From a virus, in IMG/VR virus record IMGVR_UViG_3300027861_000021, positions 1 through 64,000 of that record: DNA of 64,000 bases. One strand, written 5' to 3'. Below are positions 40,671 through 56,043 of the stretch, in pieces (position 1 is the stretch's first letter; the number at the start of each line of letters is the position of its first letter). Position numbers and translations under genes: made by a program. The notes beneath the pieces are model-generated. The model searched no databases, was not told the origin of the DNA, and saw only the letters and a list, made by a program, of their open reading frames with translations.

Positions 40671-40857
40671 ACTCCTCCATGATACAGTATACCTTTATCA
40701 TTGTATCAGCCGTACCTCCAATTGTCTCTGGGACTACAACGAATCCTTCAGCAGAAAAGAAATCTGCCATAGACTTATTCTCTGTGTGAAAGTGACCAGT
40801 ATCGCATATTGTGTTTATAGCTTCTACTACTTTAGCTAAGGTTGTTTCCAATTTCAT
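40642..40857 (-). CDS. Small protein (71 aa)
   Basis: The ATG lies inside the 3' end of the HNH gene, whose AAAGG provides the ribosome-binding site. Helical start, then an extended acidic C-terminus. Shares the (G/S)GTADTMI element with its downstream neighbour. Unknown function; apparent target-flanking gene of an HNH insertion. Confidence 0.55.
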   Translation of the reverse strand: MKLETTLAKVVEAINTICDTGHFHTENKSMADFFSAEGFVVVPETIGGTADTMIKVYCIMEEYENDRIRTD

Positions 40858-41383
40858 ATCTGTTACCTTTCTTCATATTCTCTTCTGCGGTTAATATCTG
40901 CAAGTTACTTGGTACATGTAGCCCACTAACTAATTCACCATGTAGAGGTATGATATGATCTACATGGTATTTGATTCCATGTAACTTCTCCAACCTAGCA
41001 GACTGTTTATATATCCAATCCATCCACTTGAAATCATCTTCAGTCATCCATATGGGGGTCTGGTTAGTTCTCCTGTACATGTACTGTGCTTTAACAGATC
41101 GGCCATTGTCTGTCTCTCTGTACTTCTTAGCCCTTGCTAAACCTTTCTTAGATGTATTACTTTTGTGAGAGGTAGCCTTACCTTTGTCGGACTGTTTATA
41201 AGCCCTCTGAGATTCCTTAAAGGAGTCACGGGTTCTGTATTCCCTACCATATGCTGCTAAACACTTCCTGCACTTTGATTGTTTGCCGTGCTTACCTAGC
41301 TTGGCATTCTGATAATCACTTAAAGGTTTATCTATATTACAAGTCGTACATTGTTTCTTTATTGGTGTTCTTTCCAAGCACAT
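40832..41383 (-). CDS. HNH homing endonuclease with zinc ribbon
   Basis: 183 residues: CxxC...CxxC at the N-terminus (C12, C15, C38, C41), a Lys/Arg-rich middle with repeated RAKKYRETD-type segments, and the HNH core HVDHIIPLHG followed by N-L-Q-I-L-T-A-E-E-N. It ends KKGNRYE + 5 residues, where the codons also spell AAAGG and the ATG of the next gene. Free-standing, probably mobile. Confidence 0.85.
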   Translation of the reverse strand: MCLERTPIKKQCTTCNIDKPLSDYQNAKLGKHGKQSKCRKCLAAYGREYRTRDSFKESQRAYKQSDKGKATSHKSNTSKKGLARAKKYRETDNGRSVKAQYMYRRTNQTPIWMTEDDFKWMDWIYKQSARLEKLHGIKYHVDHIIPLHGELVSGLHVPSNLQILTAEENMKKGNRYEIGNNLS

Positions 41384-41615
41384 CCTTTAGTTCCTTCCTC
41401 TCTTTCTTGAGTTGTTTAATATCATCTCGTAAGTCATCCAACCTCTTCTGATCCCAGAGGGCTGCCTCCATCCTATTTACCATTGTCTGTGTCTCCTCAA
41501 TAAGAGACTTAAGATGTCGGTAGGTGGAGAAGGTGGGGGCATCAGGGTTAAGGTGATCCCATACCTTGATTGCATCTCTCATTTCTTCCAGTGCACTACA
41601 TACTAATCTACTCAT
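41337..41615 (-). CDS. Coiled-coil protein (92 aa)
   Basis: ATG embedded in the end of the HNH gene at 41612-42028 (ATGA). C-terminal half is a strong coiled coil (DDLRDDIKQLKKERKELKD). It overlaps the next HNH gene by 47 bases, so it is flanked on both sides by homing endonucleases. Function unknown. Confidence 0.55.
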   Translation of the reverse strand: MSRLVCSALEEMRDAIKVWDHLNPDAPTFSTYRHLKSLIEETQTMVNRMEAALWDQKRLDDLRDDIKQLKKERKELKDVLGKNTNKETMYDL

Positions 41616-42028
41616 CCTTGTCCACCTTTTGATAAGTTCTCTTCTGCTGAGAGAATCTGTAAGTTATTAAATTCATGTAAGCCTCCCTTACTCAAGGGCT
41701 TGATATGATCTATATGAAATCTTTCACCACAACTGGTACTCAGTACATCACTTATCCAGTACATTGCTCGGATAGCCGACACTTCCATATCACACATATC
41801 AGGAGTCTGGTCCTTCTTCTGTGCTCTATACCTAGCTGCGATAGCATTAGACCTGCCTCGATCAACCTCTCTCCACCGCTTACCTCTAAGATAATTAGCC
41901 TCTTTAGTTGAGTCTCTGTAGGTCTTCAAACAGAGCTTACAAGAACCTTTGACCCCCCACTTACCCATTGCTTGTTTATTAAAATCACCAAGAGGTTTAT
42001 CTGTTTTACATGTATTACATTGCTTCAT
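41612..42028 (-). CDS. HNH homing endonuclease with zinc ribbon
   Basis: 138 residues: MKQCNTCKTDKPLGDF zinc ribbon (CxxC...CxxC), HNH core HIDHIKPLSKGG, then NNLQILSAEENLSKG. TAATG overlap with its upstream gene. Its last codons (KGGQG stop) also form AAAGGTGG plus the next ATG. The upstream gene also ends in (D)GQG, suggesting the insertion occurred at a related sequence. Confidence 0.85.
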   Translation of the reverse strand: MKQCNTCKTDKPLGDFNKQAMGKWGVKGSCKLCLKTYRDSTKEANYLRGKRWREVDRGRSNAIAARYRAQKKDQTPDMCDMEVSAIRAMYWISDVLSTSCGERFHIDHIKPLSKGGLHEFNNLQILSAEENLSKGGQG

Positions 42029-42366
42029 TATCCTTGCCCGTCTTTATTAGTTTCTATAAATCCTTTACGTTTACCTTCAGCTTCTTTAACTGCCTTAGAT
42101 ATCTCAGTACGTTTCTTTGAGTTAGTACCAGCTTCTATTACTTTAAGACTTGCTATTTCTTTTTCTAACATAATAGCTTGTCTTCTGGAGTTAGGTGCTT
42201 TACCATCTAAGAAGGTAGCAGACTTAACTGTATTAATAGTAGTACATACATTAAGAGCTGGAGTTAGGTGTGGATTGTCTTGGTTGTACTGCTCAACTTT
42301 ATTAGGATCAAGCAGTACCTCCAATTCCTTACCTTCTTCATCTGTATATATGAAGTACTTAAGCAT
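42028..42366 (-). CDS. Protein of unknown function (112 aa)
   Basis: Short beta start (MLKYFIYTDEEGKELEVLLDP) followed by charged helices rich in Lys/Glu. Follows a 47-aa gene and precedes an HNH gene. No family recognised. Confidence 0.55.
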   Translation of the reverse strand: MLKYFIYTDEEGKELEVLLDPNKVEQYNQDNPHLTPALNVCTTINTVKSATFLDGKAPNSRRQAIMLEKEIASLKVIEAGTNSKKRTEISKAVKEAEGKRKGFIETNKDGQG

Positions 42367-42510
42367 CTATTCTACCTCTACCTTCTTAGCAGCCTGTGCT
42401 GCCTGTATAAGCTGCGATACTTCTTGGAAGGGCTTAGTAACCAAATACTGTAGTAAGGCATTCAGCGTTGATTCTGGTAGGGTGTATAGGTCTTCTTGTT
42501 GTTCAGTCAT
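42367..42510 (-). CDS. Helical micro-protein (47 aa)
   Basis: MTEQQEDLYTLPESTLNALL begins 8 bases inside the preceding gene's end and stops just before the next ATG. A two-helix protein (LQYLVTKPFQEVSQLIQAAQ). Tight packing supports translation. Function unknown. Confidence 0.5.
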   Translation of the reverse strand: MTEQQEDLYTLPESTLNALLQYLVTKPFQEVSQLIQAAQAAKKVEVE

Positions 42511-42763
42511 CTTCTTCAATCTCCACATTGACAGGCTGTATTGCCTGACCTGATCTTATGTTTGGTTTGGCGTGTGCCTTTACGTTTGCTTCTATCTCTG
42601 CTCGTAACTCTCTTATCTCTTCTCGTACAGCCTCTGTTACTAGCTTACCACGTTTATATAATGTCCAGCAAGGTTCACAGTAATAACGGTGTGGATTAAT
42701 ACCACAGCCTACTTCTGATTCAGCACCACAACCACAGCAAGGGTCTTCTATTTCATTACTCAT
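42503..42763 (-). CDS. Cys-rich zinc-finger-like protein (86 aa)
   Basis: First gene behind the leftward promoter at 42813-42841. C9, C10, C12, C20 and CEPC (~29-32) can form a zinc finger like the short treble-clef fingers of phage regulators; a charged helix and acidic tail follow. Regulatory or host-interaction role is only suggested. Confidence 0.55.
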   Translation of the reverse strand: MSNEIEDPCCGCGAESEVGCGINPHRYYCEPCWTLYKRGKLVTEAVREEIRELRAEIEANVKAHAKPNIRSGQAIQPVNVEIEEDD

Positions 42764-42812
42764 AACTTATTCCTTTAGTTGGAGATATGGGTCTAGTTAG
42801 TAGTATAAGTAT

Positions 42813-42841
42813 ATTATAGCATATCTAACCTAAATTGTCAA
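42813..42841 (-). promoter_or_regulatory. Leftward sigma70 promoter, extended -10
   Basis: Reading leftward: TTGACA (42841-42836), 17-nt spacer, TGC, TATAAT (42818-42813). Same architecture as the rightward promoters. Expected start near 42806; drives genes from 42763 leftward including the co-chaperonin-like gene. Confidence 0.85.
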
Positions 42842-42870
42842 GTACTATTTTATAACTAACTGTAATCATC

Positions 42871-42930
42871 CTAGTCTTTTTTATTATATATACTAACAAC
42901 CATAACTCCAATTAGTTTTAATAGTTTCAT
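42871..42930 (-). CDS. Membrane micro-peptide (19 aa)
   Basis: MKLLKLIGVMVVSIYNKKD starts at an ATGA overlap with the preceding 42-aa gene. A short hydrophobic stretch flanked by Lys. Too small to judge; listed because of exact coupling. Confidence 0.3.
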   Translation of the reverse strand: MKLLKLIGVMVVSIYNKKD

Positions 42931-43055
42931 ACTTCCTCTTCTTCTAAGTCAAATGGTATAAATGTAGTAACACCATTAACACATATCTCATAACCATCTT
43001 TATATACCTGTACTATTTCTGCTTCTATTTCTACTGTGCTGTATAACTTCTTCAT
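42927..43055 (-). CDS. Acidic micro-protein (42 aa)
   Basis: AAAGGAG precedes the ATG, which overlaps the lipoprotein stop (ATGA). The sequence (MKKLYSTVEIEAEIVQVY, then DGYEICVNGVTTFIPF) looks like a small beta sheet with an acidic tail. Function unknown. Confidence 0.55.
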   Translation of the reverse strand: MKKLYSTVEIEAEIVQVYKDGYEICVNGVTTFIPFDLEEEEV

Positions 43056-43273
43056 TTCTTCTCTCCTTTGAAGCAGCTTAGTCCTGCACTAGCACTGTTA
43101 CCACTCCTAGTCGTATAGCTCCAACACACAGCACCATCAGGCATCTCACATCTGGACCACTTCCATCCATGATCTACACAGAAGATTTTAGAGTCCTCGG
43201 TTTCAGGAGCATTAACAGTTTTATTGTGGGTATCACATCCTGCAATCAATAATATCAATAGTAGTACTCTCAT
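43052..43273 (-). CDS. Small Cys-containing lipoprotein (73 aa)
   Basis: Signal MRVLLLILLIAGC with lipobox LIAGC at residues 9-13; mature part has four more Cys (FCVDHGWKWSRCEM, VCWSY, LSCF) that could form disulfides in the periplasm. Coupled to the helicase gene stop. One of three small lipoproteins of this phage; a surface exclusion role is possible. Confidence 0.65.
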   Translation of the reverse strand: MRVLLLILLIAGCDTHNKTVNAPETEDSKIFCVDHGWKWSRCEMPDGAVCWSYTTRSGNSASAGLSCFKGEKK

Positions 43274-44700
43274 TACTTCTCCTTTGGGTTAAACCAGTCA
43301 GGAATCTGACCGTACTTCTCTGCTCTCTCTATCCACAGGTCATAGTCTGAGTCTAGAATATGCGTTTCACCATAGTCATCAGGCGTTCTACAAATCCTAC
43401 CTGATGCTTGGAGGAGGTCTTTGGAGGTGAGCCAGATGTAGTCTCTGGGTTTATTGGCAGCCAAGAATCTATAACTTGGGGAGACAAGAGACTTGAAGGG
43501 GATTTTAGTGATGATCTGGAAATGTCCCGCATCATATTTAAGGTCGATTCCCTCTGCCATGCCGCTTCCAACGAATACCGCACCAGTGCTTGCTGGCAAT
43601 GAGAGAAAGTACTCGAATCGCTCACGCTTGTTGGTGTTGTTATGGAATATGAATCGGTCGGACGGTAACTCATCTCGTAACATTCTTGCCAGTTCATAGG
43701 TGGCGTGGATAAATCCTTTACGTCCTTCGTTTTTACTGACAATTCCTTCGATTTCTTTAACGAGTAGTGGCATTGTTCCATGTTTATTCCTCATGCTCAT
43801 TGAGCCAACAGGGTTGTAGATAATTGGTCTGCGTTTCTCTGCAATCTCTGAATCAGCCTTGATATAAAGTACTCTACGGTCACTAAGACCCATGTTTTCT
43901 ACATCTGACTCACCAATTGTAGCACTCATTAGTACCATCTTCTTGGTTTTCTTAGGCCAGAAGATAGGTGCCTCTGCACTTACATCCATAGGTAGCAGCT
44001 TGATACACTCACGTTCCTCACCTCTGTACCAGTCAGTTGTAAACTCAATAGTGGTGGCGGGGGTTAGGGATTTAATCTCTTGCTTCAGTTTCAACAAGGC
44101 ACCATTCACCTCACCCAAACCCTCCAGCCAAAGCAGTATATCATTGACAGATTTGACGTTACTTGGGTACTTGTGGATATGTTTCCATATCTTTGTAGCA
44201 TGGATACCCTGTAGTACAGGTAACATCTGATGTGCTTCATCAATAATCATCACATTTCTGAACAGTTTTTGGGCCTGATAACCCATAAAGTTAGCAATAA
44301 TAGGAGTGCCTACTCTTTTACATATCTTACGGTCTTCATTGTATTTACATCCTCTGGGACCAAACTTAATCCTATGCTTCACCATGAACTGTTTGACAGT
44401 CATATTATAACGAGGAAGAAAATATTCGTCTTGCTTCTTAATGGTTCTTAGCCAGTCGAACTCGTCCAAATACTGTTGTCTCAATAAGTTATTCGGTACA
44501 GTGATGGCGGTACTGGCTTTGTTTGCCAAGCACCAGTTCTGTATGGTAATAGCTATCGCACTCTTACCTCCTGCAACGGGTATCTGCAAAACAAAAGTGT
44601 CGAACCTATTCCAATTCTTCTCTACACTCTTAAGAACCTCTACTTGGCTGGGTCTTGGTTCGTCGTAGGGAAAGTATGAGAGTATATCCGTCTTATCCAT
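43273..44700 (-). CDS. SF2 DNA helicase, DinG/XPD-like
   Basis: 475 residues. Walker A variant PVAGGKSA at 41-48, DEAH at 154-157, SAT motif (LMSATIG ~residue 257), and motif VI QASGRICRT. Between motifs I and II a region with only two Cys (GCKY...KICK) takes the place of the four-Cys Fe-S domain of XPD/DinG, so the cluster is probably absent. Likely the replicative or recombination helicase; it lies beside the resolvase and primase genes. Confidence 0.8.
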   Translation of the reverse strand: MDKTDILSYFPYDEPRPSQVEVLKSVEKNWNRFDTFVLQIPVAGGKSAIAITIQNWCLANKASTAITVPNNLLRQQYLDEFDWLRTIKKQDEYFLPRYNMTVKQFMVKHRIKFGPRGCKYNEDRKICKRVGTPIIANFMGYQAQKLFRNVMIIDEAHQMLPVLQGIHATKIWKHIHKYPSNVKSVNDILLWLEGLGEVNGALLKLKQEIKSLTPATTIEFTTDWYRGEERECIKLLPMDVSAEAPIFWPKKTKKMVLMSATIGESDVENMGLSDRRVLYIKADSEIAEKRRPIIYNPVGSMSMRNKHGTMPLLVKEIEGIVSKNEGRKGFIHATYELARMLRDELPSDRFIFHNNTNKRERFEYFLSLPASTGAVFVGSGMAEGIDLKYDAGHFQIITKIPFKSLVSPSYRFLAANKPRDYIWLTSKDLLQASGRICRTPDDYGETHILDSDYDLWIERAEKYGQIPDWFNPKEK

Positions 44701-44771
44701 ATTTTAAATTCCTCCATAGTATTGAGAGTGTTACATAAATCTTCCTTACGTTTTCTTTTCTTATGTCCCAT
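44640..44771 (-). CDS. Possible overlapping basic micro-protein (43 aa)
   Basis: MGHKKRKRKEDLCNTLNTME is preceded by AGGAG 7 bases upstream and reads through into the helicase start region in another frame. It competes with the 44-aa frame at 44693-44827; only one, or both, may be translated. Confidence 0.3.
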   Translation of the reverse strand: MGHKKRKRKEDLCNTLNTMEEFKIWIRRIYSHTFPTTNQDPAK

Positions 44772-44827
44772 CTGTATCTCCTAGCTAGTCGTTTTGATTC
44801 TCTGTATTCTTCCGCTGTATTAGGCAT
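44693..44827 (-). CDS. Basic micro-protein (44 aa)
   Basis: MPNTAEEYRESKRLARRYRW, with GAGG 8 bases upstream and a stop 8 bases inside the helicase gene. Arg-rich helix. It overlaps another possible frame (44640-44771). Function unknown. Confidence 0.45.
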   Translation of the reverse strand: MPNTAEEYRESKRLARRYRWDIRKENVRKIYVTLSILWRNLKYG

Positions 44828-44976
44828 ATAATTTCCTCGTAGTGTGGGATGAATGGGTCTTGGTTACCAATTATATCTTTAAGTATCTCTTTCATACGTG
44901 TGTTCTCTTCAGTCAGTCTCTTCAACTCACTCACTGCCAGCTTTTGTACTGACTCTTCATTGTGTTCCACGTACAA
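44785..44976 (-). CDS. Coiled-coil small protein (63 aa)
   Basis: Helix (VQKLAVSELKRLTEENTRMK) followed by a short acidic/hydrophobic segment. Overlaps the resolvase gene end by 20 bases. No family recognised. Confidence 0.55.
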   Translation of the reverse strand: MYVEHNEESVQKLAVSELKRLTEENTRMKEILKDIIGNQDPFIPHYEEIICLIQRKNTENQND

Positions 44977-45487
44977 TCTCCTTTGCTCGTTCGATTAACT
45001 CTTCTTTCTTTGTATCACTAAGGCCGGACTTCCAACCCAGTGCAATAGCAACAGTCGCTTTACCCATATAGATTGCGTCCTGTTCATCACTCTTTACATA
45101 ACCACCCCACCATTTAGCAATTGACTTCCATGTACTTACGTTAAGTTGGAAGAACTCGGAGGAATCAATACCTACAATGTATACACCACAAGCCTGAATC
45201 AGACTAGCCTGTGCTTTGTAGCCTTTGATTTCCTCAAGTACCAATAGATCGTAGTGGTCGTGTATGTGCTTTAACTCTGCGGCTACATTACGTAACCTTT
45301 CAAATACAATCTTCTCTTCTGGAAATTCGATAGTGCCTGAATCTACTAGAGCACCACCTTGAAAGACAGCATAGCCAGCTACTGACTTGTTACCTTTCTT
45401 ATCGGTGGCACCACTAGTAGGATCAATAACGATCATAGAACCAGAGAGAGCGGCTTTCCTTGAAGCAGCATTCTGTAGTAGAATCAT
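44957..45487 (-). CDS. RuvC-like Holliday junction resolvase
   Basis: 176 residues. RNase H fold with the first Asp in MIVIDPTSG, a Glu after the fourth strand (LLVLEEIKGY) and C-terminal acidic motif KSDEQDAIYMG, as in phage RuvC-like enzymes that cut branched DNA before packaging. ATGA overlap with the primase gene. The first ~18 residues precede the first strand and may be an extension. Confidence 0.75.
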   Translation of the reverse strand: MILLQNAASRKAALSGSMIVIDPTSGATDKKGNKSVAGYAVFQGGALVDSGTIEFPEEKIVFERLRNVAAELKHIHDHYDLLVLEEIKGYKAQASLIQACGVYIVGIDSSEFFQLNVSTWKSIAKWWGGYVKSDEQDAIYMGKATVAIALGWKSGLSDTKKEELIERAKEIVRGTQ

Positions 45488-46260
45488 CTAAAACCACCAA
45501 TCTTTTTCATCATCATCTGTTCACTGTGTGGTTCATCTTGTGCTGCGTTCCATTCAAGTATTGCAGACTCAATGACATCCTCACTAAGCCCTGCCTCCTT
45601 GCCACTCTGCCAGAGGATATAGATATGCAGGTGCCTACCACCCACACCTCTCCTCTGTAGTAAATTCATGTGGAAGTTCCTTACGTCACCTGTCACATCA
45701 ATCGACATTGGGTTCACAGTTTTTTTCGGGGTTGCCTTAATATCAAGCTCCAGTAGTTCACCATCAAACTCGTTGGTCATTACTTTAGTTTTACCTGTCT
45801 TCTGATGTGTTGCAGATTCCATTCTAAACTGACCACCCTCACGGTATACTGAGCTGTCTATAAACTCCCAAAGACCAACATCTTTAAGCCAAGCCGTTAC
45901 TGTGTATAATGTATCAGTACCAGTAATGCGGCTACTGAGAGGGATATGGAAATGACAACCTCGATTACCAGTTTTGTACTCCTCGAAAGCAATACCCTGT
46001 CCAAGCAATACGTCACGAGACTCATCAACAAATTCAGGCTCATCCACATCAATATATATTGTAGTACAAGATAGGGATAGTCCACTAAGGCCTGCGGTAT
46101 TCCCATTAGCACGTATCCTATCAGCAACTGTTTCAGGATAGTCAAAGGTACTCCTAAAATTATAAATCGAGGGAGGAATAACTTCCCCTACCTCTACGAT
46201 TATTGGGGGTCCGACACGGACAACTTCTTTCCTTACCTCATGGTAAAAAAGCTCACTCAT
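45484..46260 (-). CDS. Archaeo-eukaryotic-type primase (AEP) domain protein
   Basis: 258 residues. The catalytic DxD (IYIDVDE, D71/D73) and the GxHxH motif (NRGCHFHIPL, H103/H105) are both present, followed by an Arg segment (QFRMESATHQKTGK) like motif III. This is the AEP/PrimPol core used by many phages and plasmids to make primers. No helicase domain is fused; the DinG-like helicase nearby may partner. The ribosome-binding site lies in the HNH remnant upstream. Confidence 0.7.
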   Translation of the reverse strand: MSELFYHEVRKEVVRVGPPIIVEVGEVIPPSIYNFRSTFDYPETVADRIRANGNTAGLSGLSLSCTTIYIDVDEPEFVDESRDVLLGQGIAFEEYKTGNRGCHFHIPLSSRITGTDTLYTVTAWLKDVGLWEFIDSSVYREGGQFRMESATHQKTGKTKVMTNEFDGELLELDIKATPKKTVNPMSIDVTGDVRNFHMNLLQRRGVGGRHLHIYILWQSGKEAGLSEDVIESAILEWNAAQDEPHSEQMMMKKIGGFR

Positions 46261-46399
46261 ATTTAGCTCCTTTTCGTCTGTTCTCTTCCGCTGTTAATAT
46301 CTGCAAATTCAACAACTCATGATTACCTCCTTTATTCTTAGAAGATTTGTGGAATTGTTGTAATTCTTTGCTGACCTTACAGGTGCTACACTGTCTCAT
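46253..46399 (-). pseudogene. HNH endonuclease remnant lacking its catalytic core (48 aa)
   Basis: Keeps the N-terminal CxxC ribbon start (MRQCSTCKVSKELQQFH) and the C-terminal NLQILTAEENRRKGAKYE, but the middle with the HNH motif is missing, leaving an in-frame 48-codon fusion. The end still provides AAAAGGAG and the ATG of the primase gene, which may be why this stub is kept. Confidence 0.75.
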
Positions 46400-46536
46400 T
46401 TGCCACCTCTCTTTGTGTGATCTATAAGTTTTATAATCTCTACTAAATGAGACCTTAATCCGTCAAGGTCTTTTAGTGGGTTGGCTGCTACAGTGTTCAG
46501 GAAATCAAAAAGTTCTTCTAGTCTTTCCTTAGTCAT
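46396..46536 (-). CDS. Helical micro-protein (46 aa)
   Basis: MTKERLEELFDFLNTVAANP starts after GGAG with 6-base spacing and ends ATGA with the HNH remnant. Two predicted helices. Function unknown. Confidence 0.55.
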   Translation of the reverse strand: MTKERLEELFDFLNTVAANPLKDLDGLRSHLVEIIKLIDHTKRGGK

Positions 46537-46539
46537 CGT

Positions 46540-47319
46540 CTACTCCAGTGTGTTAATTAGTTTAATCTCAGTTGCTGACATAGAATTGAAAGGCTTAAAC
46601 TCGCCAGATACAATATCAATTGGGTAACTGATAAGAGGACATCCACTGAATACAAGTTTCACACTACCAAACAATGTCTTACGTTCTAGCTCGGTGGTTG
46701 ATTCTCGTAACTCAGGAGTACAGCTTACAGTTTCAACTGCATCAGCAGCACCATCTACTACAGCATCCATACCATATATCCAATAGTCATCTCTAACTCG
46801 TGCCTTAAAAGCAGGTAGTGGCATGTTCATTCTAAGTGCTTGTCGTACTGTTAGCTCAGATACCTGTCTTTCAATCAATGTAATCAAGGTTCTTTGTTGT
46901 GGAACAGGTGCTGCGGGAAGACTGTAACTAGCCTCGTGCTGCATGATGATCGAGTGACTCATAACAATACGTCTTGGACATTCCTGTAGGATAGCGAAAG
47001 CCATACTAGCAGCAAACTCTGCAATGCACACTATCTTTTTTTCAGTGGCTCGGAAATACGATATCAGTGCTGCTCCTGCTTGTACACTGCCTCCCGGACT
47101 ACTAATGAAAAGGTACACGGTTTCGTCAGCCGTATCCTCAATGTCATTAATAAGTTTGGAGATTGATTTGTCTCTAACAGCATCACTAAAAACCACCGTG
47201 TTGGTAGTCTTAAGTGTGATATCTGCTACAGTACTGTCTTGTTCGGCGACTGCCTCCCTAGCAAGTGGAACTGTGACTACTAGTGCTGCTACTACTGCTG
47301 CTTTAATAAGTGTATTCAT
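46540..47319 (-). CDS. Exported ClpP/SppA-like serine protease
   Basis: Start with AAGGAG 8 bases upstream and ATGA coupling (a longer reading to 47343 lacks this). Residues 1-25 form a signal peptide (LIKAAVVAALVVTVPLA). The ClpP-type core follows: SSPGGSVQAG (oxyanion region, 73-82), catalytic Ser in FAASMAF (S105) and His in IMQHEA (H128). C-terminal ~100 residues with two Cys are extra. Unlike cytoplasmic phage prohead proteases, it should act in the periplasm; substrate unknown. Confidence 0.7.
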   Translation of the reverse strand: MNTLIKAAVVAALVVTVPLAREAVAEQDSTVADITLKTTNTVVFSDAVRDKSISKLINDIEDTADETVYLFISSPGGSVQAGAALISYFRATEKKIVCIAEFAASMAFAILQECPRRIVMSHSIIMQHEASYSLPAAPVPQQRTLITLIERQVSELTVRQALRMNMPLPAFKARVRDDYWIYGMDAVVDGAADAVETVSCTPELRESTTELERKTLFGSVKLVFSGCPLISYPIDIVSGEFKPFNSMSATEIKLINTLE

Positions 47320-47549
47320 CCTTGGTACTCCTTTGGACCGCATGTAATACGGTACTTTAATGGTTTAACTATATGGAACACCGCTACACAGGGGTTACGT
47401 GGTCCATAATCTTCTTTGCATGTTCTTTGTGCGTTGGTTAGTGTCCATTCATCTACCCAAGTAATCTCGTGTGCTACAGGTGCCTTGAGTTCAAAGAGAG
47501 GACAGACCAGATAGGCTGCGAGCAGTAGATTAGTCACGACTCCTCCCAT
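47316..47549 (-). CDS. Exported or membrane-anchored Cys-containing protein (77 aa)
   Basis: N-terminal hydrophobic segment (TNLLLAAYLVCPLF) then a soluble part with three more Cys. The ATG at 47549 lies too close to its purine run; a GTG four codons on, after GGAGGAG, may be the true start. Adjacent to the exported protease and could be its partner. Confidence 0.5.
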   Translation of the reverse strand: MGGVVTNLLLAAYLVCPLFELKAPVAHEITWVDEWTLTNAQRTCKEDYGPRNPCVAVFHIVKPLKYRITCGPKEYQG

Positions 47550-47761
47550 TCCTCAAGCTGTAATACTGCTAAGTCTAAAACTCCAATAGCCGCTGGTAGT
47601 TCTACAACGTCGGCAACAACTACACTTCTTGCAGCCTTGGCCACCTTACGGAGCAAGTGGATTTCTTTGATAAGCATAGGTACTTTACTTGCTAGATAGC
47701 TAGAACCTACATTGCTTGTCATTTCACGCTGTAAATCGTCTAATTGTTTCTCACTAAGCAT
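47534..47761 (-). CDS. Small helical protein (75 aa)
   Basis: Amphipathic helices (LSEKQLDDLQREM; VPMLIKEIHLLRKVAKAA) with a Val/Ala-rich C-terminal half and acidic end. Overlaps its downstream gene by 16 bases. No family recognised. Confidence 0.55.
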   Translation of the reverse strand: MLSEKQLDDLQREMTSNVGSSYLASKVPMLIKEIHLLRKVAKAARSVVVADVVELPAAIGVLDLAVLQLEEWEES

Positions 47762-47792
47762 TACTTGTCCCTTCTGGCTCAGTTAGCCAGTG

Positions 47793-49320: not shown

Positions 49321-49561
49321 TTGTTCTCCTCCATTTTACTACCACAACTGGCAGTAATAATATTACATTTGCTGCGTAATTAAATATCAATGCTATATCC
49401 TTTAAGGACACTGCATACACGGCCATAAGAGCCTCTCCCGTAAACCATAAGATCAGGAACGGTGTTTGTACATCTGCTTTATTGTGTTTAATGGCTTCCC
49501 AACTGAGAGGCACAGCACATACAGCCAGAAGTACGGCACCTGCCCAACTAATCAGTTCCAT
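49310..49561 (-). CDS. SemiSWEET/PQ-loop-like membrane protein (83 aa)
   Basis: Three hydrophobic helices (~4-22, 35-52, 58-76). The first ends CAVPLSWEAIKHNKAD, close to the PQ-loop pattern (P-Q/L followed by polar linker) of SemiSWEET transporters, and the second starts TPFLILWFTGEALM. SemiSWEETs dimerise to move sugars; PQ-loop proteins are sometimes found in phages. Substrate and topology not determined. Confidence 0.55.
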   Translation of the reverse strand: MELISWAGAVLLAVCAVPLSWEAIKHNKADVQTPFLILWFTGEALMAVYAVSLKDIALIFNYAANVILLLPVVVVKWRRTNEN

Positions 49562-50087
49562 CAGTGTCCTCCACTAGTGTTAGTCCAGTCTTCTTCTTCT
49601 CTAGTTTAGGAAGTCCTAACTTCTTTGTTAGGAACTCCTCTCTTACATCCTCGTCATCAGAATCGGGGCGCTTAAACAGTTCCTCTTCAATAGACATCCG
49701 TGCCGCCAATGCTTTCTTAGAGAATCCTTCTTCAAATGCTCTATCAAAGTTTGTTACTGTAGTCTCGGCCAGTGCAGCAAGTTGCATACCTGCTATGGTT
49801 ATACGGTCTTCAAGCTGTGCCCAATCAACTGTTACATCATTGTGTAAATACAACAAACAGTTTACCATATCACCAAAGAACATTGCGTGACCTGTCTCAT
49901 AGTTTTTCATGTGTAGTCCGGCACCAAGTCCTTCCAATTGTGAGTCCTCTGTAAATGAGAGTACCCATTCTTGTGGTTCTTGTAGAGCTGGTTTGATGTC
50001 AAAAGGTATGTGTATTGGGTATCTAGGATTGTTAGCTAACATCACTGCCGCCAACTTGACTCCTATTGTTGCTATTAATTCTACCAT
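49548..50087 (-). CDS. Protein of unknown function (179 aa)
   Basis: Mixed alpha/beta; hydrophobic N-terminus (MVELIATIGVKLAAVMLA), a central MHMKNYETGHAMFFGD-like region, and a charged C-terminus (DSDDEDVREEFLTKKLG). Overlaps the SemiSWEET-like gene by 14 bases. No family recognised. Confidence 0.55.
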   Translation of the reverse strand: MVELIATIGVKLAAVMLANNPRYPIHIPFDIKPALQEPQEWVLSFTEDSQLEGLGAGLHMKNYETGHAMFFGDMVNCLLYLHNDVTVDWAQLEDRITIAGMQLAALAETTVTNFDRAFEEGFSKKALAARMSIEEELFKRPDSDDEDVREEFLTKKLGLPKLEKKKTGLTLVEDTDGTD

Positions 50088-50088
50088 C

Positions 50089-50271
50089 TTAAATCTTCTC
50101 CTTACAGTCAGGGCAAATGTAATACATTGTCATGTCTCTTTCTCGTGAATATATTCCTATCTCTCTGCGAAAATGTGTTGCTCCTCCATAGTATTTCTCT
50201 CGATACTCTTCTGGGATGGGTTCATCAATAAGTGTGGCCTTACAATGAGGGCAGTTATCTAATTCGACCAT
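50089..50271 (-). CDS. Zinc-ribbon small protein (60 aa)
   Basis: CPHC at 7-10 and CPDC near the end bracket a central segment (EEYREKYYGGATHFRREIG), a two-knuckle ribbon common in tailed phages and in restriction-alleviation-type small proteins (Lar-like). Binding partner unknown. Confidence 0.65.
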   Translation of the reverse strand: MVELDNCPHCKATLIDEPIPEEYREKYYGGATHFRREIGIYSRERDMTMYYICPDCKEKI

Positions 50272-50513
50272 TTCTTATCACTCCTTACGTTCTTTGGGTC
50301 AGCGACCACTGTGAATGTGTTGATACACTCGTCACATGTACAAGTGATCTGGGATTCATCTACTAGTTCATCAAGATCATTGTCTTCAATCAGTTTACTA
50401 ATGTGCCACTTAAGCATCTCAACAGCTAGTTGATTTTGCTCCAGTTCGTATTCAAGTAGTTCATAATCTGTCTGTGAGATACTTACAATCCCATCTTCCT
50501 CCAAGCCTATCAT
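50259..50513 (-). CDS. Small protein with CxC...C (84 aa)
   Basis: ATG and AGGAGGT site lie inside the end of the HNH-AP2 gene. Helical (DYELLEYELEQNQLAVEMLKW), acidic, with CTCDEC near residue 58. Overlaps the downstream zinc-ribbon gene by 13 bases. Unknown function. Confidence 0.55.
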   Translation of the reverse strand: MIGLEEDGIVSISQTDYELLEYELEQNQLAVEMLKWHISKLIEDNDLDELVDESQITCTCDECINTFTVVADPKNVRSDKKWSN

Positions 50514-50968
50514 AGAATACCTCCTGCGTTACGCCACGCTTGATGAGCTTCCTCTGCCGTATCAAATGTGCCTAAGTAAATTTGTTTTCCGTTCACACCA
50601 ACTCTAGCATTCCACTTACCATTAGGTGTTTGGTGTGTCCCCGGTAGATGTCCTTCTCTGTGTTCAACTCTATTGAGATTATTTACACTACGGGTAACGG
50701 TTCTCAGATTTGAGAGTCTATTGTCTGACCTGTCTCCATTAATATGATCTATCTCTTTCCCTGTTCCTACAGGAACACAGGCTAGGTATAATGCCAGTCG
50801 GTGTGCTTGGTATTGTTTACCTTTAATCATAATCTTACGATATCCGTCAGGGCATAAACAACCTGCTTCGTCCCCAATATTGACTGGAGATTTCTTACTG
50901 GTCTTATACTTCCATTTAAGTATCCCTGTCTGCGGGTTGTAACTTATATATCTTTCAGTTCCTATCAT
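50510..50968 (-). CDS. HNH homing endonuclease with AP2 DNA-binding domain
   Basis: 152 residues: HNH core (AHRLALYL ... EIDHINGDRSDNRLSNLR) at ~55-95, then an AP2/ERF-type domain (GKWNARVGVNGKQIYLGTF, EEAHQAWRNAGG). This pairing is typical of phage H-N-H homing enzymes. It starts on the polymerase stop (ATGA) and its final AGGAGGT codons provide the next gene's ribosome-binding site. Confidence 0.9.
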   Translation of the reverse strand: MIGTERYISYNPQTGILKWKYKTSKKSPVNIGDEAGCLCPDGYRKIMIKGKQYQAHRLALYLACVPVGTGKEIDHINGDRSDNRLSNLRTVTRSVNNLNRVEHREGHLPGTHQTPNGKWNARVGVNGKQIYLGTFDTAEEAHQAWRNAGGIL

Positions 50969-53142
50969 GCTTTAAAACTCCAAAAATGTGGGTGAAATTC
51001 AGGTGTACCTGTCAGTGGAATGATACCACCTAGCTCGTTATTAGTTAAGACCCATGCCTCATCGAATAAATCCTTGGCTTGCTCCTTCCATTCTAAAGGA
51101 ACTTGCCAAACAGTCTCATCATGAAAGTCTGGTAGTACGGGTTTTATATGATACATCTTGTTCTCCTGTACTAACTGATTCAGATGGTACAAGTACTTGA
51201 CTAGGATGAAGTGTCCTGTCCTCTGAATTAGTCTGTTGAGGATGTCTTTTTCAAAGTCTTTTGTGACTGTGACTGGGGTTCCGAGTCCGTCAACGAAGAA
51301 GCCTTTGTTTGCTTTCCACTCTGCAACAAGTCTTTTTCTGTACGTTGTAACTCCTTCAAATGTTTTCCAATATCCTTCCCATATTGTTGTAACTTCTGCA
51401 AGGCTAATTTGTATTCCTGACTCGATGAGGGTTTCGTGTATCGTGTCCGGCCAAGCACCGTATTGTGAAGAGAGGTGTATGACTTTACAGATTGTTCTAA
51501 TTCGTTTAGCGACTTTTTTAGCTCTCTTAATTCCGCTGCTCGTTGGATTTGTATTTGAGTATCCTGCATCTTCAATCTCCTGTTTAAACATTTCAATCTG
51601 TGAACCAATGAATAAATATACATCATTGGGTGGCCGGTTTGGTCCATATAAATTCATGTAACTGGGACAAGCACTTAACTCGGCCAGTACTACTGCTTCT
51701 AATGCGTCTATATCCATCTGCAAGAAAACGAAGCCTTTCTTCGGTATCAAGCAACTGAGATATCCTTCTGATTTAGGTAGCTGCTGTATGTTAACACCAC
51801 CAGTACCACTACATCTATCTGTCTTGGTCCCACTCACCCTAAGTTGGCTATAATGAACTCCAGTTTCAGATCGGTCCAACATCTTAGATACATAGCCTAA
51901 CTCTTTGTTGAGTGTGTTATACTCGGCCAGTAACTCACCAGCTCTACCAAGTTTAGGTAATACTGTCTTGTCTACCTTCCTGTTAGGCACCTCTAAAGAT
52001 GTCTCTTGAAACTCCCAGCGTATTGTCGGACCTCCTGAGACTATTATTTGGTTCTGCACTATTCGTCGTCCTGCCTTATTCCTTACAGGGAAGCCTGAAT
52101 AACCTACCTTGAATTTATAGGTGTGCTCTGTCTCATATAGGCAGTCATAAAATAACCAAGCTAGTTGCTTCTTGCTGTTGGCATTGAAGTGTTGTGTATC
52201 CTTGACGGTCACTAGTTTTTCAGACCACTTGGAGTAACGGCTGCTAGGTTTACCCGTCTTCGTTTGCTTAGGAGGCATCCTATCATAGTGTTCTCTTACT
52301 GCCTGTGCATTGTACTCTTGTATGTGTACTGAGGCTGGGCTGTCTTCATAAAACTCAGTCATTAACTCAGCCATCCGGTCAGTTAATTTCTTAGAATGGG
52401 CTTCCAGTTTTTTTCTGTCAATCGTAATTCCCTCCCGCCTTGCCTCATCTATTAGGCGAATTAGGTTCTGAAAGTCACGAGTATGGTATACGTCCAACTC
52501 TGGGAATCTAGAGAGTATTGGGCTGAAGATATTTTGGTACAAGTCCCAAGTTGCTTGAGCATCCATGTTACAGTACTTTCCGAGCACTGAGTCAGGAGCA
52601 TTGTGCATTTCTCCTTTGAGGACTTTACCTCTGTTATTAACATACCCGTTAAGGGTGAGCCACTCATCCAATTCGACATCACCTTTGTCCTCCCATCCTA
52701 GTAAATCTACCTGTAAATTCTTAAGTCCTTTGTTACCGGGTACACCTGCGTAATCACCTTCGATCGAATTGAGTAGGCACATTGTATCGTATTGAATATT
52801 TGCGTACCTACCTAAAGCACTGTAGGTCATCCACTGTTCATATTGAGCACCGTGAGCTATTGTTGGTCTCATTGCCACCCTTCTTAGTATGATTTTCTTT
52901 ACTCCGTCAGTTTTGTCATCCAAGTTTTTGAAGCTGAAGTATACTCCTGCGGGGTATTCATCGTCAACAACACTTACACCAACAATTTTGTCCTCTAGTT
53001 CTAGGCCAGTAGCTTCATAATCAAAGGCTGCCAGTTTATTAGAGCTTGCCATCGGTAAATATTTGTTAACATCCTCTGTGGTAGGGTTCTCTAGTATAAT
53101 GCCCTGTCTAGGGGCTGTCTTTACTGATTTCAATAATATCAT
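50965..53142 (-). CDS. polA: Family A DNA polymerase with 3'-5' exonuclease
   Basis: 725 residues; copies the phage genome. Exonuclease motif I FDYEATG (D41, E43). Polymerase motif A QMDIDALEAV (D476, E481), motif B RTICKVIHLSSQYG (R548, K552, L556, Y560), motif C FHDE (672-675). No 5' nuclease domain. Aligning motif B to E. coli Pol I places Leu at position 762, where Phe or Tyr is seen in many lytic phages. Flanked by HNH genes on both sides. Confidence 0.92.
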   Translation of the reverse strand: MILLKSVKTAPRQGIILENPTTEDVNKYLPMASSNKLAAFDYEATGLELEDKIVGVSVVDDEYPAGVYFSFKNLDDKTDGVKKIILRRVAMRPTIAHGAQYEQWMTYSALGRYANIQYDTMCLLNSIEGDYAGVPGNKGLKNLQVDLLGWEDKGDVELDEWLTLNGYVNNRGKVLKGEMHNAPDSVLGKYCNMDAQATWDLYQNIFSPILSRFPELDVYHTRDFQNLIRLIDEARREGITIDRKKLEAHSKKLTDRMAELMTEFYEDSPASVHIQEYNAQAVREHYDRMPPKQTKTGKPSSRYSKWSEKLVTVKDTQHFNANSKKQLAWLFYDCLYETEHTYKFKVGYSGFPVRNKAGRRIVQNQIIVSGGPTIRWEFQETSLEVPNRKVDKTVLPKLGRAGELLAEYNTLNKELGYVSKMLDRSETGVHYSQLRVSGTKTDRCSGTGGVNIQQLPKSEGYLSCLIPKKGFVFLQMDIDALEAVVLAELSACPSYMNLYGPNRPPNDVYLFIGSQIEMFKQEIEDAGYSNTNPTSSGIKRAKKVAKRIRTICKVIHLSSQYGAWPDTIHETLIESGIQISLAEVTTIWEGYWKTFEGVTTYRKRLVAEWKANKGFFVDGLGTPVTVTKDFEKDILNRLIQRTGHFILVKYLYHLNQLVQENKMYHIKPVLPDFHDETVWQVPLEWKEQAKDLFDEAWVLTNNELGGIIPLTGTPEFHPHFWSFKA

Positions 53143-53746
53143 ATCTAGCTCCCTTACTTATATTATCAAATGCGGTTAGGTATTGTAAATTTGTGTAATG
53201 ATTCAACTCATACACCTCTGATTCTGTTTTTGCAGAGCTAATAGGTATTATGTGATCTATGTGTAGGGCTAGATCAGGAGCAAGTAACTCTTTCATCTCC
53301 CAACTAACATCATAATTACGACTAAATGAATCTTTCAGATGTTGTTGCACTGTCTCGTAATCTGTTCCTAGTATGTCAGAAGTCTTACTTCCTTTCTTAT
53401 ATCCCTTAGTCTTAAAGCATTGCCATAATAGTGTGCGTAAGCCACACCTCAATTTGAATAAGGGGTCGGAGGCTTTTCTATTCCTACTGTACTCCCTGTT
53501 GTAGTGCCTTTTCTGTTCTTCCTTACCTTTTCTATATTCTTTAGCATAACTCCTTTCATGGTCTTTGTTCTCTATACGCCATTTATCTCTGTATATCTTT
53601 CTCTCCTCTTTGTGGGAAGAGTTATATATAGCCCTAGCTACCTTATCACACTCTTTACATTGCGGCCTCAATCCATCTACGCTTGCAGACTTTTTACTGA
53701 AAAGTTCTATTCCTTTATTCTCTTTGCATTTGGTACAAGTCTTCAT
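53108..53746 (-). CDS. HNH homing endonuclease with zinc ribbon
   Basis: 212 residues: CTKC...CKEC ribbon, a long Lys/Arg/Glu-rich helical linker, then HIDHIIPIS and TNLQYLTAFDNISKGARYD. The KGARYD codons contain AAGGGAG and the ATG of the polymerase gene; the frame runs 9 codons into polA before stopping. Inserted directly upstream of the polymerase. Confidence 0.85.
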   Translation of the reverse strand: MKTCTKCKENKGIELFSKKSASVDGLRPQCKECDKVARAIYNSSHKEERKIYRDKWRIENKDHERSYAKEYRKGKEEQKRHYNREYSRNRKASDPLFKLRCGLRTLLWQCFKTKGYKKGSKTSDILGTDYETVQQHLKDSFSRNYDVSWEMKELLAPDLALHIDHIIPISSAKTESEVYELNHYTNLQYLTAFDNISKGARYDIIEISKDSP

Positions 53747-54312
53747 TAAAATTGTAGCTCCTTTGGTAATTGCCTACGTCTTGGTTTGGGTTCTTCTACA
53801 GGTGTCTCTGGTTTATCTTCGTTGTCATTGCTGTATACCCCTTGTATCTCTGTACGGTACATCTTAATTTGGTCCTGTGCTAGAGCCTGTCTTAGTTCTG
53901 TAAGAGTCTCAGCAGTGTATCTACCTGCCTTGAAACCCTCTGGTACTCTAGTGAACTTCTGTCCACCATTATTACCAATATCTAATCTTACTTTTGAGCC
54001 AACTAAGATGGAGATACGGGTTGGGTCATCTTGTATTGCCCAAAGTCCAGAAGCATCCTCAACACCTGATGCCACTAGTTGCTTAAACAAGTAGCTCATA
54101 TCTGTCTTGTTGAAATTGGCGAAAAAGAATCTCTGGCGAATAGTTTCCCCAAAGTTGTTTTTAAATTCAATGTCTGCACTGTCATCATTTATTATTACTG
54201 TGTCTACTTCTACTGTGTGTGTTCCTTCTTTCATGTCACCTCCAAAGAATGTTGTGCTGAGGTCTCGTTCAAGAGACTCTGTTGGTTTACCTGATATGCT
54301 TTTGTATGCCAT
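53746..54312 (-). CDS. Possible single-stranded DNA-binding protein (188 aa)
   Basis: Start MAYKSISGK chosen for GGGAGG 7 bases upstream. Beta-rich middle (THTVEVDTVIINDDSADIEFKN is one strand pair) followed by helical and Pro/Arg-rich tail ending PKELQF. Position between the polymerase and recombination genes suits an SSB or replication accessory, but no definitive motif is visible. Confidence 0.35.
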   Translation of the reverse strand: MAYKSISGKPTESLERDLSTTFFGGDMKEGTHTVEVDTVIINDDSADIEFKNNFGETIRQRFFFANFNKTDMSYLFKQLVASGVEDASGLWAIQDDPTRISILVGSKVRLDIGNNGGQKFTRVPEGFKAGRYTAETLTELRQALAQDQIKMYRTEIQGVYSNDNEDKPETPVEEPKPRRRQLPKELQF

Positions 54313-54469
54313 CACCGTACCTCCCATAGCGATCATTCATTTCTTCACCCCATATTAGTACTTCTTGTGTGTGATTAAGGAAGTAATACATAAAAGAATA
54401 GTGATATCCATCACCAAACATGATGTCCATAGTCTGTTCCCATGCTTCCGATACGTCTTCTTTATTCAT
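54287..54469 (-). CDS. Small protein (60 aa)
   Basis: AGGAGG before the ATG, downstream of the tRNA-shaped RNA. Tyr/Trp/Met-rich, acidic (EAWEQTMDIMFGDGYHYSFM). Overlaps the next gene by 26 bases. Function unknown. Confidence 0.55.
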   Translation of the reverse strand: MNKEDVSEAWEQTMDIMFGDGYHYSFMYYFLNHTQEVLIWGEEMNDRYGRYGDGIQKHIR

Positions 54470-54491
54470 TACTTCCTCCTGTTGTGTGTAG

Positions 54492-54544
54492 TTGTGGCTG
54501 AAGGGACTCTACTCCTTCATTTAATCCATTCGTGTGAACCACAA
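54492..54544 (-). other. Nested hairpin after the tRNA-shaped RNA
   Basis: TTGTGG/CCACAA (54492-54497 with 54539-54544) encloses GAAGG/CCTTC (54500-54504 with 54514-54518). It lies between the tRNA-shaped RNA and the ribosome-binding site of the 60-aa gene, forming a structured leader. Confidence 0.45.
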
Positions 54545-54546
54545 TT

Positions 54547-54624
54547 GATACGGGTCGGACCTTCCCCGACGACCTCTACGGCGATTTCTCTGGTAGTGCT
54601 CTAATATATCTGAGCTACCGTATC
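54547..54624 (-). tRNA. tRNA-shaped RNA with non-canonical loops (tRNA-like or pseudo-tRNA)
   Basis: Reading leftward: acceptor GATACGG (54624-54618) pairs perfectly with CCGTATC (54553-54547); TA; D stem GCTC/GAGC; A26; anticodon stem CTAC/GTAG; variable AGGTC; T stem GTCGG/CCGAC joined directly to the acceptor. All stems and linkers have tRNA geometry. But the T loop is GGAAGGT instead of TTCGANN, the D loop lacks GG, and the anticodon loop is 13 nt between 4-bp stems. No anticodon can be assigned. Either a decayed tRNA or a tRNA mimic. Confidence 0.55.
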
Positions 54625-54630
54625 AATTCA

Positions 54631-55020
54631 TTACCCTATTACTAGGTTGTGCGTTGGGTTGTTGCACGGCTCACCATCGTAACCAATAACAGCTTCACCT
54701 GCCTTGTTACGAAGTTCTGTAGTACCATCTTCATTGAAGTAGAACTTGTTGTTGCCCAAAAGCATACCGTCTGCTACATAAAAGATTGACTCTACTCCAT
54801 CCTTCTCGGATGTACGTTGGTCCAGTGACCCAGCATCCTGAAAAGGAGACTCGTTATCACCAATTTTAGTTGTACGAACATTACGTACCCCTGCTTTCTT
54901 GTTGTCCTTAAATACCCAGTACTTAAGTCCAGATTCCTTGTCCTTACCTGCTAAGTAGGTGTTACCTGCTTTGCTTACGGTTGGCCAAAGTCCAATGTGT
55001 TTCTTCTTACCTTCGCTCAT
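54631..55020 (-). CDS. Protein of unknown function (129 aa)
   Basis: Start MSEGKKKHIG chosen for GGAGG 7 bases upstream. Gly/Asn-rich beta protein with repeated short strands (YWVFKDNKKAGVRNVRT; KFYFNEDGTTELRNK). Lies between annealing-protein and tRNA-like loci. No family recognised. Confidence 0.55.
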   Translation of the reverse strand: MSEGKKKHIGLWPTVSKAGNTYLAGKDKESGLKYWVFKDNKKAGVRNVRTTKIGDNESPFQDAGSLDQRTSEKDGVESIFYVADGMLLGNNKFYFNEDGTTELRNKAGEAVIGYDGEPCNNPTHNLVIG

Positions 55021-55067
55021 ATTGTTTCCTCCAATGAGAGATTCACCCACAGTATTGTGGGTTATTG

Positions 55068-55538
55068 TTAAAATGGTATTTCTTGTGTTTTAGTTGCTAC
55101 CTTCTTACGAACCCGAGCCTTACTCTTACCTAGACCATTACCTAAGTCTAAAGGCGTTCCCTGTCCATCTATGTAGACCTGAATGCCTAGTCCGTGCATT
55201 GCAAGACCTTTAACTAAGCAGCGTTTGGTTGCTGAGTTGATGTCAAACACGCCCAACTTTTCGCCTCGTATTGCGTTGTTATAGTTATCCAGTACGGGTA
55301 GGACTTCAATCAGTGAGTTACCTTTGATGGTTACCTCAACCTGAACCATTGCACCAGCCTCAGTGAATGAGAATGGATTACCCTGTGGGTCATTAATTAC
55401 CCTATAGCTCGCTTCTGGGTCATAGTTCTTAGCTAATGCCCAAGCTGCTGACCACTTTAGGTATGAAAGGTTCTGCTTCTGCTCCAAGTGCATTGATACA
55501 TCAATCTTGCTTAAGTCTGCGAATGTTGTGTTAGTCAT
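55068..55538 (-). CDS. Single-strand annealing protein, Sak3/DUF1071-like
   Basis: 156 residues. Conserved block LSYLKWSAAWALAKNYDP near 25, Val/Ile-rich strands (MVQVEVTIKG), LPVLDNYNNAI and FDINSATKRCLVKGLAMHGLGI match the Sak3/DUF1071 recombinase family, which anneals ssDNA during recombination and pairs with an exonuclease. The C-terminus IPF may bind a partner. The exonuclease gene is ~1.6 kb upstream in the same direction. Confidence 0.75.
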   Translation of the reverse strand: MTNTTFADLSKIDVSMHLEQKQNLSYLKWSAAWALAKNYDPEASYRVINDPQGNPFSFTEAGAMVQVEVTIKGNSLIEVLPVLDNYNNAIRGEKLGVFDINSATKRCLVKGLAMHGLGIQVYIDGQGTPLDLGNGLGKSKARVRKKVATKTQEIPF

Positions 55539-56043
55539 ATTTTGCCCCTTTGGCTAAGTTGTCCTCAGGAGTGAGGATTTGTAGGTTAGTGTAGTAGCAG
55601 AGTGCCACCACCTCCTCTTCAGTTGTTGCTGTTGCAATAGGTTTGATATGGTCAATGTGATGGCCACCCAGTTCTTCAATGCTACATCCATAGTTTGCTT
55701 GACAAGTTGCTTCTAAGTGGGCTTGTGCTGTCTCAAATGAGCATCCTATTATCTCAATGGTTTTGTTAGGTTTGTTCCAGTTTTTACGCTTAAAAGAATG
55801 AAGTACGGCTAGTCTTAGGTCATGTTTGAATTTGAAGAATGGGTCTGTCTTTAGTCGTTTCCTCATTGACTTACGTACTTGTACTCCCCTACATACTTTA
55901 CAAGCATTATCATATCCATATTGACCACCTGTGTCTTTATTGAATCCACCAACACCTCGGATACCACCACAATAATTACACTGTAACAATTCCATATCAT
56001 TCCATAAGGCATCTCTGTCTTTAGGTTTCATTCTTATTCCCAC
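55531..56043 (-). CDS. HNH homing endonuclease with zinc ribbon
   Basis: 170 residues. GTG start 9 bases after AAGGAG (an ATG four codons on is an alternative). CNYC...CKVC ribbon, helical linker, then HHIDHIKPIATA and TNLQILTPEDNLAKGAKYD. Final codons contain AAAGGGG and the ATG of the annealing-protein gene. First gene after the leftward promoter at 56089-56117. Confidence 0.85.
   Translation of the reverse strand: MGIRMKPKDRDALWNDMELLQCNYCGGIRGVGGFNKDTGGQYGYDNACKVCRGVQVRKSMRKRLKTDPFFKFKHDLRLAVLHSFKRKNWNKPNKTIEIIGCSFETAQAHLEATCQANYGCSIEELGGHHIDHIKPIATATTEEEVVALCYYTNLQILTPEDNLAKGAKYD

Follow-up and report, generated by a model that had tools for sequence, protein, structure and literature searches.

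How can a mobile endonuclease gene invade a tight operon of essential genes without killing the phage? The question is raised by a 64,000-nt stretch of viral DNA (positions 1 to 64,000 of IMG/VR record IMGVR_UViG_3300027861_000021, hereafter the window), which sits within a 66-kb viral contig and in which several HNH endonuclease genes end inside the beginning of the next gene. An earlier note on this DNA had proposed that the last codons of these genes contain both the Shine-Dalgarno (SD) sequence and the ATG of the downstream gene. The best explanation overall, and one that we consider likely, is that HNH homing genes of this kind are cassettes running from ATG to ATG, which relay the ribosome-binding site (RBS) to the next gene through the codons of their conserved tail. 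The HNH genes of the window and the starts written in their ends are as follows (tails are given up to the stop codon).

40832-41383, minus strand: h1, zinc-ribbon HNH, endonuclease VII-like, 183 aa, tail ..KKGNRYEIGNNLS, PHROG 1035 (E=3e-25)
40855-40870, minus strand: SD and start of a 71-aa gene (40642-40857), AAAGGTAACAGATATG, within the h1 codons
41612-42028, minus strand: h2, zinc-ribbon HNH, 138 aa, tail ..SKGGQG, PF01844 and PHROG 1035
41613-41629, minus strand: SD and start of a 92-aa gene (41337-41615), AAAGGTGGACAAGGATG
46253-46399, minus strand: HNH remnant, 48 aa, a zinc-ribbon start fused to ..NLQILTAEENRRKGAKYE (ending ..RKGAKYE)
46258-46273, minus strand: SD and start of a 258-aa gene (45484-46260), AAAGGAGCTAAATATG
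50510-50968, minus strand: AP2-HNH gene (HNH_3/AP2), 152 aa, tail ..AWRNAGGIL, of another family and without the KGxxY tail
50511-50525, minus strand: SD and start of an 84-aa gene (50259-50513), AGGAGGTATTCTATG, in the AP2-HNH tail
53108-53746, minus strand: h3, zinc-ribbon HNH, 212 aa, tail ..SKGARYDIIEISKDSP, PHROG 1035
53140-53155, minus strand: SD and start of DNA polymerase A, AAGGGAGCTAGATATG
55531-56043, minus strand: h4, zinc-ribbon HNH, 170 aa, tail ..AKGAKYD, PHROG 1035
55536-55551, minus strand: SD and start of the Sak single-strand annealing protein, AAAGGGGCAAAATATG

The end of h1 overlaps the next gene by 26 bp (ATG at 40857), the last 35 bp of h3 lie inside the polymerase gene (ATG at 53142), and both h4, the first gene behind a sigma70-type promoter, and the remnant, which is without the catalytic middle, overlap their neighbors by 8 bp (ATG at 55538 and 46260, respectively). 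In these four, KG(A/N)(K/R)Y is encoded as AARGGNNNNNNNNATG, and the downstream ATG lies exactly 13 nt past the first base of the conserved K codon. The h2 gene shares a 4-bp ATGA overlap with its neighbor, the ATG (41615) being at +14 from the K codon. An out-of-frame start at +11 to +17, with its SD in the Lys-Gly codons, was thus found in all five ribbon-HNH tails (5/5), and the window phage is unusually rich in this arrangement. The AP2-HNH gene reaches the same arrangement from an unrelated tail, with a 4-bp overlap, the SD AGGAGG and the ATG at 50513. Pairing with the anti-SD at the six downstream starts ranged from -4.0 to -11.7 kcal/mol, and none of the six downstream genes has an alternative in-frame start that beats the tail ATG, although a TTG two codons on ties with it in the h1 target. 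With these overlaps and pairing energies, the proposal that the tails carry the SD and next ATG held for the HNH genes and failed for a GIY-YIG gene, described below, to which it had been extended. The note had also read KG(A/N)(K/R)Y(E/D) in all six tails; KG(A/N)(K/R)Y is present in h1, h3, h4 and the remnant, and h2 (SKGGQG, +14) and AP2-HNH (NAGGIL) depart from it.

To whom the SD and ATG originally belonged is best seen in cultured phages, where near-isogenic filled and empty sites were available for four HNH alleles in three genera: Rosemountvirus, at a helicase gene (filled renfri versus empty rivia, yarpen and UPF_BP2); Nonagvirus, at dpdA (filled SE1 and FritzHoffmann, with two HNH alleles, versus empty ChristophMerian and BRET); and Nipunavirus, also at dpdA (filled NP1 versus empty DoCa3 and PAJD-1). 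The empty helicase start of rivia and yarpen reads ..AGTTAATGAGGAGATGATAA on the leader side and ATGGCTTTTGAAGC on the gene side. The rivia-type leader is found in renfri with a 3-nt insertion, followed by the HNH start codon, and the helicase start comes 490 nt later (..AGTAAAGGAAATAAAT followed by ATGAGCTTTGAAGC), the bases ahead of its ATG encoding the HNH-tail residues SKGNK. In SE1, 100/100 leader nucleotides match ChristophMerian as far as an ATG that in SE1 opens the HNH gene, and the new dpdA start follows ..AAAGGAAATAAGTTCG; the HNH gene at this place in FritzHoffmann is another allele, with ..AAAGGGAATCGCTATA directly before the ATG. In DoCa3 and PAJD-1 a GGAGG leader serves dpdA; NP1 has this leader, with three mismatches, in front of its HNH gene, and its dpdA restarts after ..AAGGGTAACAAGGTGACGAC.

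Across the filled alleles, the ATG of the displaced gene is preceded by AAAGG or AAGGG from the C-terminal HNH codons, and in Rosemountvirus, Nonagvirus SE1 and Nipunavirus the SD native to the target is found ahead of the HNH gene. The Drulisvirus phages RCIP0112 and ZX22, compared with A1o and SU552A, likewise have the HNH gene at the start codon, with leaders that diverge more, and close relatives in all four genera thus differ in its presence at one conserved site; a metagenomic pair (L187 versus L041) agrees with the cultured ones. For terL of Obolenskvirus, sought as a further pair, the empty relatives were too divergent. If relatives without the insertion had kept the same SD-ATG bases, these would have belonged to the host gene; in the near-isogenic cultured relatives the bases differ, and the native SD drives the HNH gene instead. 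At the level of sequence comparison, then, the insertion point is the start codon, the native SD is handed to the HNH gene, the new SD and ATG are in HNH codons, and the target 5' ends are recoded. In the course of these searches we noted that record PP583539.1, labeled a "Listeria phage", is 95% identical to Salmonella Rosemountvirus over the searched region, and its host label looks wrong.

The recoding was most evident in the renfri helicase, which differs from that of rivia at 10 positions in the first 60 nt and at only 8 in the next 930 nt (P=9e-9). Similar local divergence at the target 5' end, spanning about 30-140 nt and mostly synonymous, was found in FritzHoffmann, SE1 and NP1, and comparing the first 60 nt with the rest of the target in the four filled alleles gave P values of 9e-9, 2e-6, 2e-6 and 8e-5. 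This altered flank, as seen in co-conversion, indicates that the moving unit, as read from the aligned alleles, exceeds the HNH reading frame; the recoded tract is what donor-flank co-conversion beside a cleavage site would leave, and the filled allele could be resistant. A related case was observed in locus L079 (2779-3360), where the first 16 residues of the HNH protein, MSWYDKLLETAKDVAQ, copy the N terminus of the downstream protein, MSWYEKLLEVGKDVAP, with 33/48 nt identical, and the target 5' end therefore appears on both sides of the HNH gene.

Why an HNH tail would lend itself to this use can be read from the protein family. All of h1-h4 match PHROG 1035 "endonuclease VII", h2 matching the Pfam HNH family too, and they contain D-H-I-x-P and N-x-x-K, the HNH catalytic motif, together with CxxC pairs of zinc-binding cysteines. 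When members from the window, from metagenomes and from cultured phages were aligned together (22-42% identity to h1), the N, K and G columns of N-x-x-K-G were invariant, and this motif sits at or near the C terminus, where the HNH domain ends. Since K-G can be encoded only as AARGGN, always including AGG, and a Tyr codon TAT followed by a G-initial codon gives TATG, the tail motif is inherently near an SD plus an out-of-frame ATG. The window HNH genes are reading frames of their own, and their targets are intact, begin at the tail ATG and match the polymerase and Sak families; by these reading frames, with no RNA family search for introns made, the HNH genes are free-standing, outside any intron or intein.

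We therefore consider a mechanism in which a free-standing, endonuclease VII-like HNH homing gene would act as an ATG-to-ATG cassette entering at the start codon of its target, whereupon the native leader and SD would translate the nuclease. The codons at the HNH end, N-x-x-K-(G/S)-N-(K/R)-(Y/F), would read AARGGNAAY..TA(T)G, a moderate SD, and the out-of-frame ATG about 6-10 nt past it would become the new start codon of the target. The HNH frame would stop at the first stop codon met around the target start, and the target would be translated off the new SD, perhaps with help from translational coupling as the HNH frame terminates. Along with the HNH gene would come a recoded 5' end of the target, probably making the filled allele resistant to the nuclease. 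Nuclease activity, the cut site, translation from the new start and resistance of the recoded allele are what we infer from the sequences. Once the native SD had been captured, deletion of the HNH tail would silence the target, and the insertion would thereby be retained. The remnant at 46253-46399, which lost its middle and kept its RBS tail, agrees with such retention as a single case; a search of the fetched loci for further HNH genes that had decayed around a preserved RBS tail gave no clear case beyond the window's own. By analogy with the cultured-phage insertions, the window HNH genes would have arisen in the same way. The only near twin of the window phage, L472 (IMGVR_UViG_3300023112_000084, from another metagenome, 99.7% identical over 2.8 kb), is also filled at sak, where it carries h4.

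The earlier note had suggested scanning HNH genes of many phages for an overlapping ATG. IMG/VR contigs were sampled via three HNH-core DNA patterns (GLHVPWNLQ, HYTNLQPLW and YHVDHIIPL), the tail being excluded from the patterns, and this yielded 317 distinct HNH genes with enough downstream DNA; the controls were 1600 other genes on the contigs of the first two samples (GLHVPWNLQ and HYTNLQPLW), and the statistics ignore kinship among the sampled genes. An overlap of 5-60 bp with the downstream open reading frame (ORF) was found for 69/317 HNH genes (22%) versus 149/1600 controls (9.3%; P=3e-9), the excess being clear in the GLHVPWNLQ sample (28/113, P=4e-6). The first ATG of the downstream ORF was at +11 to +17 from the Lys in 48 of the 227 HNH genes having such an ORF, with a mode of +13; counts of this type are upper estimates, as the first-ATG rule yields some false positives (the second HNH gene of L125 versus L119). 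The SD strength at tail starts exceeded that at random internal ATGs (P=7e-4) and equaled that at other overlapping starts (P=0.51). Annotations by depositors independently show 4-14 bp overlaps of HNH genes with DNA polymerase I, DpdA, terminase, primase, helicase and tail genes. The scan thus bore out the overlapping ATG, with its excess and its +13 mode, in a substantial minority of the genes.

Several results weigh against the relay, or against its generality. The HYTNLQPLW sample alone showed no excess of 5-60 bp overlaps (15/120, P=0.26), and only a minority of the sampled HNH genes shows the arrangement. Out-of-frame ATGs at +11 to +17 opened a long downstream ORF in 52/71 cases, versus 17/543 further upstream, but this contrast overstates the effect, ATGs near any gene end opening downstream more often, and 22% versus 9.3% is the fairer figure. 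The tail SDs are moderate, with means of -2.5 (kind A) and -4.2 (kind B) versus -3.5 to -4.7 kcal/mol at ordinary starts, and TAT was not significantly favored at the Tyr codon (P=0.10). Neither megablast against cultured phages, which showed no close relative of the window, nor a search for polymerase relatives in IMG/VR gave a usable relative, and no empty site was found for the window phage. In three loci (L099, L117 and L129), the HNH gene lies upstream of a native AAGGAGG leader, which writes the tail ..KEEI, and at the second HNH gene of L125 the native SD is still present, as comparison with the empty L119 shows.

These last cases are exactly what is expected if the overlaps are those of any compact genome: the HNH gene would have landed ahead of the SD of its target and been read on into the native leader, and the SD and ATG would be the target's own; phage overlaps and SDs inside upstream genes are also common, as the 149/1600 controls illustrate. 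We consider this account unlikely for the arrangement as a whole. Where near-isogenic empty sites are available (four HNH alleles, three genera), the HNH gene separates the native SD from the target, and the bases of the new SD are not those of the native one. Moreover, HNH genes overlap the next gene more often than controls do, and the position of the overlap follows the HNH Lys codon. In their own right, L099, L117 and L129, compared with the empty L140, represent the opposite polarity: the SD stays with the target, whose DNA supplies the codons of the HNH tail. The earlier claim of insertion at a start codon is thus borne out by the sequence pairs in which the HNH tail restores the SD and ATG, from which the target would still be translated, and does not extend to the insertions that keep the target's SD.

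The genes downstream of the sampled HNH genes are functionally unrelated (terminase, portal, helicases, exonuclease, endolysin, DNA polymerase, Sak and DpdA), the commonest class, by most frequent PHROG, being the terminase large subunit (at least 8 of 43). This prevalence, and the HK97 HNH protein that acts with terminase (PMC10448857), would fit an HNH protein that is a functional partner of the downstream gene, as in packaging, with the overlap serving operon translational coupling rather than recording mobility. We judge this very improbable, given the unrelated downstream genes and the near-identical phages that keep the target without the HNH gene; co-conservation with terminase, as in HK97-type packaging, was not seen, the window targets being the polymerase, Sak and small genes and the sampled targets diverse. 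Beside this diversity, HNH genes of two subfamilies sit at the start of a Dda-like helicase gene (GPPGTGKTT) in L081/L082, L212, L244 and L301, which suggests repeated invasion of one site.

Whether the tail is an adaptation, as the earlier note had it, is a further question. A purpose-built KG(N)(K/R)Y tail, selected as an RBS beyond any protein role, is possible but doubtful. In its favor, all five window ribbon-HNH tails are in register, and KG rather than KS or KN was moderately enriched where an overlap exists (21/48 versus 62/256, P=0.008, computed without correction for sequence relatedness). However, the motif is also present in skrot and KpV52, where no co-directional gene follows to be served, the SD strength of the tails does not surpass that at other overlapping starts, and the Tyr codon is not significantly biased. 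Exaptation is the probable course and fits better, given a motif that is conserved even where nothing follows to be served and a Tyr codon free of such bias. The HNH genes of Wheeler and Skate are clear of the next gene. The arrangement occurs often without being a rule, and the wider claim that it is general to free-standing homing genes fell with the GIY-YIG gene and with its occurrence in a substantial minority of the sampled HNH genes.

The target genes named in the window, the GIY-YIG-like gene and the promoter-like sites are listed below.

50965-53142, minus strand: DNA polymerase family A, PF00476, clear match
55068-55538, minus strand: Sak annealing protein, SSAP_Sak PF06378, clear match
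45484-46260, minus strand: target of the remnant, 258 aa, weak PHROG primase match (E=0.008)
21569-22105, plus strand: GIY-YIG-like gene, weak match to a PHROG homing endonuclease
2991-3019 (plus), 7993-8021 (plus), 21243-21271 (plus), 28412-28440 (plus), 42813-42841 (minus) and 56089-56117 (minus): TTGACA-N17-TATAAT sites

Of the targets the earlier note had named, the polymerase and the annealing protein are confirmed by their Pfam families, and the "primase" has only the weak PHROG match. The Sak start is independently supported by the PHROG and Pfam profiles, which align from residues 2 and 5, respectively. Directly after the GIY-YIG gene comes an SU10-adaptor-like gene (PF24175) with its ATG at 22127; the GAGAGG at the GIY-YIG end, which had been likened to the HNH tails, is about 24 nt upstream of this ATG, and the ATG is without an SD (+0.7). 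The six TTGACA-N17-TATAAT sites are exact and all carry TGCTATAAT (extended -10), where 0.78 would be expected allowing one mismatch, and one of them is just upstream of h4 and the sak operon.

Free-standing homing genes with embedded signals are known from T4, where seg and mob genes overlap the upstream ORF, which limits nuclease expression, and embed promoters of downstream genes, which has been tied to their retention (review PMC2988022). Like these, the HNH genes described here are free-standing, intergenic and beside conserved genes, with embedded downstream signals; unlike them, they overlap the downstream target, and the embedded signal is an SD and start codon in conserved protein codons. 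The mobE insertion of Aeh1 and the mobA insertion of T4 split nrdA or gene 60 into two polypeptides (PMC2988022). There, as here, a homing gene is inside its target gene and target function survives, but an insertion at the start codon, as here, leaves the target protein in one piece. T5orf172 and IPA-HNH homing genes cluster beside terminase, polymerase and other essential phage genes (2023 survey, PMC10448857), the same kinds of neighbor as here but with other nuclease families; the words "ribosome", "start codon" and "overlap" do not occur in the main text of that survey. Ordinary coupled, overlapping gene pairs likewise have the SD and start codon in the last codons of the upstream gene, whereas in the present case the upstream partner is a mobile insertion, which brings with it the conserved protein motif that writes the SD. 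In the open-licence PMC literature, subscription literature being outside this scope, no prior description was found of a downstream gene's RBS or start codon inside the tail of a homing gene.

An RBS swap of this kind would be a simple and testable answer to how homing genes invade tight essential operons without killing the phage. It predicts how such genes become hard to lose and why a decayed HNH remnant would keep its tail, it predicts the borders of the mobile unit (the start codon on one side and the end of the recoded tract on the other), and it gives gene callers a rule by which to place the start of the downstream gene correctly. In a broader proposal, to which we give even odds, the conserved residues at the HNH-domain end would make it an RBS relay with a double coding role. 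Nearly every start codon could then serve as an entry site, the gene would take over the RBS found there and pass on another, and its deletion would be difficult even once the nuclease had decayed; this would be a main reason why such genes are positioned ahead of essential phage genes.

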